NCBI GenBank assembly: GCA_951828515.1
Contig: OX639992.1
Coordinates: 3,512,217-3,576,216 of the forward strand
Length of the DNA stretch: 64,000 bases
Direction: 5' to 3'
Origin: an uncultured Poribacteria bacterium
GTDB taxonomy: Bacteria > Poribacteria > WGA-4E > WGA-3G
Below are positions 42,137 through 47,726 of the stretch, one piece after another. The notes below the pieces were generated by a model. The model searched no databases. It worked only from the letters and a program-made list of their open reading frames with translations, and was not told where the DNA came from. How positions within the stretch are numbered: position 1 is the stretch's first letter; each line of letters begins with the position of its first letter. The position numbers and the translations under genes are program-made.

Positions 42137-43042
42137 ATGCCGAGTCAGGTCCTCCAACAAGTCGCAAAGCGTATTCACTTGGGATACGAAAAGTTCTTTG
42201 ACAACCTTAAGGACCGCAAAGCAGGTAAAACGAAACGTAAAGTCGGTAGACCGAAAATCAAGCCGAATCATAAATATAACTCCTTGACGTTCACACAAGC
42301 AGGTTTCAAATTAGAAGGCAATCGTCTAAGAATCAACTGTCTCGGTAAGTCGTTCACGTTTTGGAAGCACCGCGACTGGACAGGCACGATAAAGACAGCA
42401 ACACTCAAACGTGATAATGTAGGCGACTACTCTCTCTACCTGAGTTGTGAGGACTGCGAACCCTCCGAGGAACTCCCTTTGACCGGTAATGTGGCAGGGG
42501 CAGACTTCGGAATGAAAACATTCCTCACCCTTTCAGATAACACGAGAATAACGTCCCCCGAATTCTACAAGCAAGGTCTCAACGCAATCCGTTCGGCAAA
42601 CAAGGCACTCTCCCGTAAGCAGTATCTTTCGAGTGGATGGTTTCGTGCGAAGCGTCACCTCTGTCGTATTCATAAGAAAATAGCAAATCAGAGACGCGAT
42701 TGGTTCTTCAAATTGGCCCTTCGACTTGTGCGTAAATACGATACGATTGCGATAGAGACCCTGAACCTTGAGGGTATGAAACGCCTCTGGGGACGGAAAA
42801 TCTCTGATATTGCTTTCGGTGAGTTTGCTCTCATCCTGCGATGGACGTGTGCGAAATATGGTAAAACGTTCGCACAAGCTGGTCGTTGGACTGCCACAAC
42901 AAAACCGTGTTCGGTTTGTGGACATCATAACGAAGATTTAACACTTTCAGATAGACAGTGGACGTGTCCTGACTGTGGGTTTCACCACGATAGAGACATC
43001 AACGCTGCTATCAACATTTTGCAGGCTGGGGTACCCGCGTAA
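42137..43042 (+). pseudogene. tnpB: N-terminally truncated TnpB nuclease of IS605 type
   Basis: This 301-residue product corresponds to TnpB from about its first third onward. The RuvC residues are all present: D in AGADFGMKTFLTLSD, E in TIAIETLNLEGMKRL and D in HHDRDINAAINIL. A zinc ribbon CSVCG...CPDCG lies between the last two. The family's N-terminal wedge domain is missing, because an in-frame TGA lies just upstream and only MPSQVLQQVAKRIH remains of it. No tnpA is present. The RuvC centre is intact, but the lost domain makes RNA-guided cutting unlikely. RE-like sequence follows. Confidence 0.85.
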
Positions 43043-43198
43043 CAATGCGCGATAAAGCCGTCCGATCGCACCTTCATGAGTGCGGCGGAGACGGAATAAT
43101 AGCCTGCGGGTGGAGCGACAGTCAGACGTTCAAACCTCTGGTAAGAACGCAGTCGCTACGAAACCGAAGCCCACGCCTTTAGGCGTTGGATGGTATCA
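43000..43198 (+). ncRNA. Candidate omega-RNA / IS605 right end after tnpB
   Basis: The sequence after tnpB ends with GAAGCCCACGCC-TTTA-GGCGTTGG and ATGGTATCAC, the hairpin-plus-terminal arrangement typical of IS200/IS605 right ends, where the omega-RNA scaffold is encoded. The first hairpin strand starts near 43169. The guide would be read from sequence just beyond about 43198, directly before the dockerin-FGE gene. Expression has not been shown. Confidence 0.55.
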
Positions 43199-43224
43199 CG
43201 ACTATATGAAAGGAGTATCAACAA

Positions 43225-44232
43225 ATGAATAGAAAACAGATTGTGTTTATTTTTGCGATCGTCGTGTTGGTGTGTCTCACGCGAGGGATTTCGGTCGGTG
43301 GGAACGTGGATGTCAACGGGGATGGTGTCGTGAATACGGCAGATTTGGAGTTTGTTGGGACACACCTTGGCAGGTTGGGTGAGCATGCTGCCGATGTCAA
43401 TGACGATAACGTTGTGAACATAGCCGACCTGATGTTGGTAAAGAATGCGATAGGCGCGCCGGTTTCAGGCGTTGGCGAAATGGTGCTGATTCCGGCTGGT
43501 GCGTTTCAAATGGGCAGCACCCGCGAGTATTCGAACGAATGGCCTGTGCATACGGTGTACCTCGATGCGTTCTATATGGATAAGTATGAGGTAACGAATG
43601 CGGCGTATGCGGCGTTTCTCAATGCTAAAGGAAAACATGGTGAGGCTGGAGTTATCTGGTATGACCTCGCCGATGGTGATGCGCGGATATCCCTTATTGG
43701 GGGTACCTATCGTGTAGATGCGGGATATGAAGATCACCCTGTGGTAGAGGTGAGTTGGTATGGAGCGATGGCTTATGCGCAGTGGGCAGGCAAGCGTTTG
43801 CCGACAGAGGCGGAATGGGAGAAGGCAGCGCGTGGGGGTTTGGCAGGTAAGAGGTATCCGTGGGGGGATACGATTGATGCTACCAAAGCGAACTTCTGGC
43901 CCCATGTTAAGGATACCACGCCAGTCGGCAGTTATCCTGCGAACGGTTACGGTCTCTACGATATGTCAGGCAACGTGTGGGAGTGGTGTTTGGATGCGTA
44001 TGATGGCGGTTTCTATCGTAATTCGCCGCGTCGGAATCCAATAGCAGGTGCGAATAATATAGCCGAGGTGCTAAATGAATTCACAAATAATAACTTAACA
44101 AATGCTTCCCGCGTTTTGCGTGGCGGCTCCTGGAGCTTTACGGCTCAGGACGTGCGGGTCGCCTATCGCTTCGGCTCTTCGCCTTCGACTGCGCACTACA
44201 GCGGCGGTTTTCGTTGTGCGAGGGCTCGGTAA
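43225..44232 (+). CDS. Secreted dockerin plus FGE-sulfatase-domain protein
   Basis: This 335-residue protein has a signal peptide (IVFIFAIVVLVCLTRG) and two dockerin-like calcium loops (DVNGDGVVNTADLEFVGTHLG and DVNDDNVVNIADLMLVKNAIG, about residues 27-77). A formylglycine-generating-enzyme/C-type-lectin-like domain follows: MVLIPAGAFQMGS, the EWPVHTVYLDAFYMDKYEVTN core, WAGKRLPTEAEWEKAARGG and GLYDMSGNVWEW. The C-terminal RVLRGGSWSF...GFRCAR region is of the kind diversified in many genomes. Catalysis is not assured. The ATG follows GAAAGGAGTATCAACAA. It lies directly after the IS605 right end. Confidence 0.88.
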   Translation: MNRKQIVFIFAIVVLVCLTRGISVGGNVDVNGDGVVNTADLEFVGTHLGRLGEHAADVNDDNVVNIADLMLVKNAIGAPVSGVGEMVLIPAGAFQMGSTREYSNEWPVHTVYLDAFYMDKYEVTNAAYAAFLNAKGKHGEAGVIWYDLADGDARISLIGGTYRVDAGYEDHPVVEVSWYGAMAYAQWAGKRLPTEAEWEKAARGGLAGKRYPWGDTIDATKANFWPHVKDTTPVGSYPANGYGLYDMSGNVWEWCLDAYDGGFYRNSPRRNPIAGANNIAEVLNEFTNNNLTNASRVLRGGSWSFTAQDVRVAYRFGSSPSTAHYSGGFRCARAR

Positions 44233-45703: not shown

Positions 45704-46240
45704 GGAAATGTCCGTTCCTGCCTCTGTCTTAGAGTCTACCGTAAATTACCCTGAAAGTCAACGGATATTCCGCTGACAGCAGGATCATTCAATTGTCCTT
45801 TTTGCAGGTGTTAACACTTAATATATGTTATGCTTTAAGACAAACCGCCGAAATTTTCGCAGCATTTCGCTAGATTTCGCAGCATTTTGATAGGAGGTAA
45901 AACCATGAACACAGAACACGATATGTGTCAAGCATAGGGAGCCTCCAGGCCCGGTAGGGTTTGCTTGTAGGTTTCTGCGGATTTCTTCACGGTTTTGCGG
46001 CGTACTCGTCCAAATTTTGCCCATACGCGGCAAAATTTGTCTTTGCTTTACATTTGCAACCTGCATTCAGACATCCATTCCATAAGCCGTAAGGACATCA
46101 AAAAAATAAAGGGAATCATCCCTCAATACAACAAAGTACCAAATTCTGCTTATACATAGCAGGATTTGTGTCGCGTTACACTTTTCTTTGTAATTTCACG
46201 AGAAATTGAGTATACTATTTAACTAATGAAGGATAATACT
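45704..46240. other. Gap with repeat fragments and a 10-codon ORF
   Basis: No real gene is seen in this part of the 732-bp gap. An ATG at 45904, behind a strong TAGGAGGT site, opens a frame of only ten codons (MNTEHDMCQA), probably a remnant. The direct repeat TTTCGCAGCATTT occurs twice near 45855-45890. GTCTTTGCTTTACATTTG near 46040 matches modules in the leaders at 55.7 and 56.4 kb. Confidence 0.5.
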
Positions 46241-46858
46241 TAACAATCCCAAGCATTTATGCTTGGGTCCAACCCCGTACCGCTCGTGCTTTATTATCAA
46301 AAAAGATTTGACGATGCCTTGATAATGTGGTATCATTAGAGTATCTCGTAGATAGGCATAACCAGCGTAGTCGCAAGGCTGCGTGCCTGTCTCTCACTGG
46401 TTAGGGGATAAAATACGGGAGACGAGATAGGCCCAATGATTCTATCACATAAGATAGCATTAGACGCTACGGACGACCAATGCGCGTGGTTTTCGCAACA
46501 ATGCGGTTATGCTCGTTTTGCGTTCAACCATGCGTTATCCGACTACAACAACGAACCGCGTCCTTGGAAAGAACTCAATACTCGTTTCAATATAGCCAAG
46601 CGTGCGATTGATTGGACGCGCGAAATGGATCAGCGTGCTGCCTTGTTTGGTATAAAGCATCTTGGGGACGCTATAAGCCGTTGGAAAAGTGGACAAAACA
46701 GGAGACCGAAGAAAAAGAGACGCAGAAACCGTCAGTCATATAGCACCGACCCGAACACAGTCAAGGTAGAATGGAAACGTATCAGACACTTGCGGAAGGC
46801 AGTAAATTATGAAACAAGAACGGAGGAATCCCACTGCTTTAGCTGTGGGTGGTGTCAA
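46241..46858 (+). mobile_element. Decayed IS200/IS605 element with truncated tnpB
   Basis: The left boundary is near the perfect hairpin CCCAAGCAT-TT-ATGCTTGGG (46248-46267). The right boundary is near GGAATCCCACTGCTTTAGCT plus GTGGGTGGTGTCAA (46825-46858), which looks like an IS605 right end. Between them lie a promoter and only the first third of a TnpB. The right end now forms the start region of the following acyltransferase gene. Exact ends and target site were not determined. Confidence 0.7.
46308..46336 (+). promoter_or_regulatory. Promoter inside the decayed IS605 element
   Basis: TTGACG (46308-46313) and TATCAT (46331-46336) are 17 bp apart, 100 bp before the tnpB fragment. If active it would read through into the acyltransferase and the lpt genes. 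Confidence 0.6.
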
Positions 46859-46873
46859 AGACTGGTGTTATGA
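46436..46873 (+). pseudogene. N-terminal TnpB fragment (IS605 type)
   Basis: This open frame of 145 codons starts MILSHKIALDATDDQCAWFSQQCGYARFAFNHALSDYN and continues through FGIKHLGDAISRWKSGQNRRPKKKRRRNRQSYSTDPNTVKVE. This is the wedge-like N-terminal region of a TnpB family different from the one at 42.1 kb. After residue 115 it leaves the family and runs into the element's right end. The RuvC domain is absent, so it cannot cut DNA. No Shine-Dalgarno sequence of note precedes it. Confidence 0.8.
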
Positions 46874-47726
46874 GTTTGCTGCCAAATCAATCGGATTCTG
46901 CGTATCCCGACTGCCGCGCTCGGTGACATTGGCTATAGGTGGATGGTTGGGGGTCCTTGTTTTCTGGTTGGCACCACAGCAAAGGGAACTCACCTATGAC
47001 CACTTACGAGGCAGTCTGACACTCTCAGATGAACGCCAAGTCAAAGTAGTGGCAAAACAGTGTTTTGAAAACTTAGGCAAGACTGTAGTGGAGTTCATGC
47101 AGTTCCCACGCTTGGATAAGCAGCAGATTCAACGATATGTCACTTTTGAAGGTATTGAGCATGTGCAGCAAGCCCTTGCGCTTGGGAAAGGGGCAATCAT
47201 TCTAACGGGGCATTTTGGCAACTGGGAACTTCTGGCTGCCAGCATTTCTGTTACAGTTGCTCCGCTCACACCCATCGTTCGTCAATTGCGTTCCCCCCGT
47301 TTAAACGCCTTAGTCTCCAGTTACCGTGAGAAAGCGGGGTATGCGACTATCGACAGGGATACTGGCGTGCGCGACGCACTTCGATGTCTCAAACGTAATG
47401 GACTGCTCGGTATTGTCGCCGATGTAGATACAGCCGTGAACGGTGTTTTTGTCGATTTTTTCGGTAGGTATGCCTATACACCCTATAGTCCAGTTGCTAT
47501 TGCGCTCAAAACAGGTGCGGCGATACTGCCAACGTTCATTATCCGTCAACCGGACGGTTCACACCACGCAATTATCGAACCACCGTTAGCGTTAAAACGG
47601 ACATCTATGAAAGAGAAAGATCTTGTTGTTAACACCCAGAAATTCACAAAAATTATTGAATCATATATTCGACAATATCCGACGCAGTGGATTTGGATGC
47701 ATCGTCGGTGGAAAACACAACCATAG
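46809..47726 (+). CDS. LpxL/HtrB-like lipid A acyltransferase
   Basis: This protein of about 305 residues is a lysophospholipid-type acyltransferase of the LpxL/HtrB family. It has the catalytic HX4E motif in LTGHFGNWELLAAS near residue 138 and later GLLGIVADVDTAVNGVFVDFFGR, FIIRQPDGSHHAIIEPPL and WIWMHRRWK. Such enzymes add secondary acyl chains to lipid A at the inner membrane; an N-terminal hydrophobic segment fits that. Its start codon and about 16 first residues are encoded by the right end of the IS605 remnant, behind GGAAGG. It heads lptC, lptA and lptB. Confidence 0.88.
   Translation: MKQERRNPTALAVGGVKDWCYEFAAKSIGFCVSRLPRSVTLAIGGWLGVLVFWLAPQQRELTYDHLRGSLTLSDERQVKVVAKQCFENLGKTVVEFMQFPRLDKQQIQRYVTFEGIEHVQQALALGKGAIILTGHFGNWELLAASISVTVAPLTPIVRQLRSPRLNALVSSYREKAGYATIDRDTGVRDALRCLKRNGLLGIVADVDTAVNGVFVDFFGRYAYTPYSPVAIALKTGAAILPTFIIRQPDGSHHAIIEPPLALKRTSMKEKDLVVNTQKFTKIIESYIRQYPTQWIWMHRRWKTQP

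Follow-up and report, generated by a model that had tools for sequence, protein, structure and literature searches.

Insertion sequences activate neighbouring genes through hybrid or outward promoters, and some integrating elements, among them those whose integrases use tRNA genes, recombine at a matching attachment sequence and rebuild the end of the gene that they target. Within the IS200/IS605 group, ISDra2 integrates 3' of TTGAT and IS608 uses TTAC, and the guide RNA of ISDra2 comprises the 3' end of tnpB, the right end and ~16 nt of the flank (PMC8612924). In IStrons, a group I intron is combined with an IS200/IS605 or IS607 element, which makes the element harmless to the host gene (PMC4227781). 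A search of the open-access literature, outside which most subscription papers and preprints lie, did not find start restoration by an IS200/IS605 element. The element described here was found in a stretch of 64,000 nucleotides (the window) from a genome (G000) whose nearest named records in a homology search are Poribacteria MAGs. It is very probably a member of an IS200/IS605-type, tnpB-only family that restores the start of the genes into which it inserts, a reading based on comparison of its sequence with related copies and with element-free orthologues.

The window copy is a decayed element of 628 bp (46231..46858; all features given here lie on the + strand), delimited by the identity of its joined flanks with the empty site and by an end common to other copies. 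Its right terminus is TCAA (46855-46858); identity with a second copy in the same genome (4632018-4633129) stops at 46858, which fixes the right end, and the cut position is uncertain by 2 nt because AA is common to ATGAA and TCAA. A left boundary at 46241 was rejected, as empty sites and other copies put it at 46230/46231, just after ATGAA. TTAAC, which precedes the native ATG and also occurs within the left end, was rejected as the target, as aligned left ends keep TGAA/GG constant (the slash marks the cut). The severed native start ATGAA (46226-46230), recognized by alignment to orthologue starts, now opens a five-codon ORF, ATG AAG GAT AAT ACT TAA (46226..46243), whose stop is supplied by the left end of the element. 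Further parts are a left-end subterminal hairpin, CCCAAGC ATTTAT GCTTGGG (46248..46267), common to other left ends, and a 5' remnant of tnpB (46436..46786) with a match to HTH_OrfB_IS605, the remainder of the gene being gone in a 751-bp deletion relative to the G030 copy (L011/L135 comparison). The right end carries the ribosome-binding-site-like motif GGAAGG (46794..46799), where intact copies have the 3' arm of their right-end stem, a start codon followed through to the terminal TCAA (46809..46858; 16 complete codons, the ATG included, plus two bases of codon 17) and a terminal hairpin, CCCACTGC TTTA GCTGTGGG (46830..46849), common to other right ends. Codon 17, a lysine, is two thirds element and in frame with the acyltransferase, its codon having been rebuilt with the element's AA. 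These boundaries bear out the original prediction that the element ends within the first codons of the acyltransferase and supplies its GGAAGG site, its ATG at 46809 and about 16 of its residues.

The gene read from this start encodes a lipid A acyltransferase (LpxL-like; 46809..47726; PF03279, E 5e-52) of 305 codons, running from the ATG at 46809-46811 to 47726, and is followed by ORFs that resemble lptC, lptA/LptD_N and lptB (ABC-transporter-like). Because of an in-frame TAA (46803-46805), the ORF has no start codon ahead of the ATG at 46809. When the gene was searched in 35 other genomes of the same genus, alignment began at residue 1 only in G012 (93%) and G030 (91%), both of which carry the same element, and at residue 13-16 in nearly all others; some 30 same-genus relatives without the element begin at the native ATG. 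This comparison of N termini and upstream regions, on which the element origin of the start could have foundered, left the first residues common only to the carriers. Upstream, element-free orthologues read TTGTAA, 17 nt, TATACTATTTAACn and ATGAAAGAYTGG, and the window has the same block (...TATACTATTTAACTAATGAA), then the element, host sequence resuming with AGACTGG after TCAA. Without the element, the window reads ATGAAAGACTGG, the native start; its joined flanks, ...TTTAACTAATGAA/AGACTGGTG, equal the uninterrupted start ATGAAAGAYTGG of ~30 same-genus orthologues, and the native ATG was therefore not removed: the element interrupts its ORF behind the fifth base. The proposed replacement of the native start holds in so far as the sequence of start, ribosome-binding site and N terminus is now the element's, but the native ATG itself persists and is closed after five codons. 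The start region of this gene has been disturbed repeatedly. In G007 (L016), the native start reads ATGAA-ACTAATCAA-AGACAGG, with a 9-nt in-frame insertion whose TCAA end lies exactly at the insertion point, possibly the footprint of an excised or deleted element. In G023 (L042, 3203-4000), the conserved -10 box is separated from the ATG of the acyltransferase by an inserted small gene, which has a signal-peptide-like start of its own and a CHGCH that resembles a heme motif.

The native promoter-like block, TTGTAA (46188-46193), 17 nt and TATACT (46211-46216), together 46188..46216, stands intact upstream of the window element, and almost every same-genus orthologue has kept it, 8-12 nt ahead of the native ATG. 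Given this short distance from -10 box to ATG, the native acyltransferase message may be leaderless or near-leaderless, perhaps throughout the genus. A similar spacing of TTGTCA and TATAAT was seen in other families of the order. Inside the element, the pair TTGACG (46308-46313), 17 nt and TATCAT (46331-46336), together 46308..46336, had been put forward as a promoter; the pair is present, and TTGAC-type/TATAAT-type pairs occupy roughly this position in 24 of 39 full-length left ends, but in G012 its -10 box has been deleted and the right-end start retained. With the native block intact and the internal -10 box missing from G012, the suggestion that the insertion had perhaps replaced the promoter as well is not supported.

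Three carriers record the fate of the insertion. G030 has the full-length element with tnpB as an intact 357-codon ORF, the window copy is the 751-bp internal deletion of this form, and G012 carries another deletion, corresponding to window positions 46321-46786; the segment from the ribosome-binding-site-like motif to TCAA is identical in all three despite the two different tnpB deletions. The carriers show one insertion in three stages at this locus, the full element and two distinct deletion forms, all of which retain the start cassette. In the window lineage, most of tnpB was lost and the cassette stayed, presumably because the gene now depends on it. Host-gene dN/dS is 0.14-0.16 among these carriers, compared with ~0.09-0.10 in two native acyltransferase pairs, and by this measure the gene is still under purifying selection after the insertion. 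G022 and G011 carry another, related element at the same base, again with the frame restored (MKKQESHSFRWGNV-KDW), and the abandoned native ATG of G022 is now ATA. On the gene tree, well supported branches force the insertion state to change twice, and the acyltransferase start has therefore been hit twice independently; in this tree, G022 (L038) carried the native label because its locus came under another name, and it groups with G011.

Two ATG-bearing queries were used to gather right ends of the family by similarity across 38 genomes of the genus, which biases the sample to that type; 91 junctions were examined, 87 without repeats, and part of the copies may go back to inheritance and not to separate insertions. 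The family target in the genus is TGAA, most often within ATGAA, directly after which left ends start with GG(G)A, and in many right ends an AGGAGG-type motif is separated by a short stretch from an ATG, which is followed by NNGAARCAAGAATCCC, a hairpin and the terminal TCAA. Where the ATG lies at -44, an in-frame (phase-2) ORF of at least 300 nt continues across 39 of 46 junctions, as against 1/46 and 0/46 in phases 0 and 1, leaving seven junctions without a restored long frame; such an ORF follows 3 of 25 right ends without ATG (Fisher p 1.8e-9 vs 39/46) and 13.5% of random TGAA in the window (binomial p 2e-27). Open ATGs in the last 70 nt number 62, 6 and 2 at distances of 2, 1 and 0 mod 3 (62/70 in phase 2), the phase-2 distances from ATG to end being 44, 47, 50 and 62, and 2 mod 3 is the phase of an NTG-AA target. 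An SD-like GAGG, GGAG or better precedes the start in 39 of 45 start-restoring right ends, and of the 27 restored copies with a readable left end, 22 have an intact or mutated ATG as left flank, the chance expectation being the 26% of A before TGAA. In G017, near-identical copies of the -50 subtype (L217-L222), four of them on one 289-kb contig, sit at non-start TGAA with no long frame restored.

The order in the left ends is ATGAA, a stop, a hairpin, the promoter-like pair in the 24 of 39 copies mentioned above, and then tnpB. In 21 of the 26 left ends that retain the native ATG, an in-frame stop follows after exactly five codons. Subterminal hairpins are found in many copies (CCCAAGC/GCTTGGG on the left, CCCAC/GTGGG on the right), and tnpB is intact in most full-length copies, with about 357-390 codons; the G030 TnpB (357 codons) matches PF01385 (E 1e-28) and PF07282 (E 1e-19), that is, OrfB_IS605 and Cas12f1-like TNB domains. 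A search of full-length copies against Rfam matched no family at E up to 0.5, and a group I intron was not found.

Empty sites were read in relatives for five further genes, tsaD, a PNPOx-type (pyridoxamine) oxidase gene, leuC, Mrp and an unnamed gene (G000 3146128); in these, the native ATGAA ends exactly at the junction, a few relatives having ATGAG, ATGAC or similar. Including the acyltransferase, junctions equal empty sites at six loci in total, with no target duplication. Domains found after right ends include TsaD, LeuC/aconitase, an Mrp-type ATPase, the N domain of UDP-glucose dehydrogenase, short-chain dehydrogenase, epimerase, sulfatase, DAO oxidoreductase, aldo-keto reductase and others, and in the clearest cases (epimerase, sulfatase, UDP-glucose dehydrogenase and short-chain dehydrogenase) the host domain begins at residues 15-20 of the fusion. 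The predicted N-terminal peptides, for example MKQERRNPTALAVGGVK or MTKQESHDFRRGSIK, would be joined to host sequence, and the N termini annotated for proteins of these genomes may in many cases be incorrect. In the window's own genome, tsaD begins on a transposon right end (L215, G000 4297643).

The exact right-end pattern occurs in 17 of the 38 genomes of the genus and is absent from 47 other genomes of the phylum. A sister genus has TnpB relatives (best about 55-67% identical) whose right ends finish in GTGAGTATCAC with GTG or ATG at -11, again in phase 2; 8 of 13 restore a frame of at least 500 nt, as against one in phase 0 and none in phase 1. There, tsaD has been hit again (MSIT-ILGIDTSCDETAAAVV; L378 in G072, with the element at the tsaD start and ATG at -11). 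Y1 transposase genes are present in 37 of the 38 genomes, in trans only, and none is tied to these ends. The window holds a second tnpB (42137-43199; PF01385, PF07282), truncated at its 5' end, with a right end of another type that ends near TATCAC; start restoration does not occur there, as the formylglycine-enzyme-like ORF that follows at 43225 has an AAAGGAG and an ATG of its own.

In the proposed mechanism, the element inserts 3' of TGAA without target duplication, probably moved by a Y1 TnpA acting in trans, and where TGAA lies within a start codon (NTG-AA) the insertion severs the start from its gene. The right end then reads ribosome-binding site, ATG, open frame and TC AA/, and the distance between ATG and end is always 2 mod 3, such that the element's AA substitutes for that of the target and the host gene continues in frame from the element's start. 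The left end closes the severed native ORF after five codons, and the host gene becomes the last cistron in the order promoter, mini-ORF, tnpB, host gene, presumably transcribed from the native and the element promoter and translated from the right-end start, its protein gaining about 14-16 residues. Start restoration would be a selected trait of the element, as it would make insertions nearly harmless even where the target, tsaD for instance, is presumed essential. The layout is compatible with a guide RNA made from the right end plus flank; if this is arranged as in ISDra2, the guide of TnpB would correspond to the opening codons of the host gene. On this evidence, it seems probable that transposons encoding RNA-guided nucleases have evolved a start-restoring design, with a target that contains the start codon, a stop in the left end and a ribosome-binding site and start in the right end, whereby insertion spares even essential genes, tnpB is tied to host transcription, and the host mRNA serves as guide-RNA precursor with its own first codons as the guide.

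The main rival explanation supposes a filter on survivors: the element would insert at any TGAA, and the ATG and GGAGG of its right end would be accidents of the guide-RNA scaffold that happen to rescue insertions at starts. A neutral filter that removes harmful insertions could yield part of the pattern, and the right-end stem speaks for such a view, as its form is CCTCC-loop-GGAGG, with the ribosome-binding-site-like motif as 3' arm, and the SD arm pairs with the upstream arm in most copies; two copies in which ATG has become ACG have the stem compensated to CCTTA/TAAGG. The GGAGG arm would also lie in the presumed guide-RNA scaffold, and the ribosome-binding site may be a by-product of it, perhaps hidden in the stem. 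Folding of single right ends gave z 0.31 for the window copy and a weak z of -1.71 for an intact one. ATG-less elements share the TGAA-type target and sit outside gene starts, a further point for the filter. Such a filter explains why starts are tolerated, but it explains less well the kept phase of the ATG and the excess over intergenic TGAA. The ATG distance changes only in threes, whereas the -44 and -50 types differ in the frame in which they read the hairpin, so it is the phase at the end that is preserved. In addition, a crude census of the window (87 intergenic TGAA vs at most 31 at start sites) implies that neutral survival would leave at most about a quarter of copies at starts, against the 39/46 observed. 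A filter on its own is for these reasons considered unlikely, though it is the strongest of the alternatives.

Less probable still is that the transposase or the guide actively prefers start regions, for example the single-stranded transcription bubble near +1, with restoration as a secondary matter. This would account for the strong excess of starts over intergenic TGAA and for repeated hits on the same start (the acyltransferase twice, tsaD in two genera), and the native acyltransferase start does lie 8-12 nt past its -10 box. Yet ATG-less relatives with a similar left end are not found at starts, and the other targeted genes seem to have ordinary leaders. One accidental insertion that replaced start and promoter of a single LPS cluster describes the start of the acyltransferase correctly, but the recurrence of the pattern at dozens of genes refutes it as a one-off, and the retained native promoter and the loss of the internal -10 box in G012 also tell against it, leaving it very improbable. 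Equally implausible is that the insertion inactivated the gene and left a decaying remnant, or one read from an internal start: a single case would be in frame by chance one time in three, but the ORF is intact, with low dN/dS in the three carriers and an identical right-end region across two different deletions, and the family frame statistics speak against chance. Judged from these sequence comparisons, start restoration belongs to the element family as a whole and is no accident of one locus, and the wider phenomenon is of more interest than the acyltransferase case alone.

If the start-restoring design is real, it describes a transposon that is harmless without splicing and without a safe site, a gene being cut at its start and handed a new one. 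It would account for tnpB elements in genes such as tsaD, it predicts widespread mis-annotated N termini in these genomes along with translation fusions created by nature, and it sets guide-RNA processing in direct conflict with the host mRNA.

Compared with known systems, the family resembles the IS1341-type (tnpB-only) members of IS200/IS605, relatives of ISDra2 and IS608, in its subterminal hairpins, its TnpB domains and the presence of TnpA genes only in trans in the genomes, and it shares with IS200/IS605 a target motif kept only at the left end without target duplication. Unlike the targets of ISDra2 and IS608, TGAA contains the TG of the start codon, and unlike known IS200/IS605 elements, the right end carries a ribosome-binding site with an in-phase start codon and the left end a phase-matched stop. 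The nearest systems in effect are IStrons, in which an element of IS200/IS605 type is likewise harmless to its host gene; whereas they are spliced out at the RNA level, the present family provides a new translation start, adds residues and is confined in this effect to gene starts. As in promoter activation by insertion sequences, the element gives expression signals to a downstream gene, but here these are a start codon and a reading frame at a constant, phase-locked position. Finally, as with tRNA-gene integrases, the gene is spared through sequence carried by the element; here, however, the element carries no duplicate of the host gene, only a generic start.
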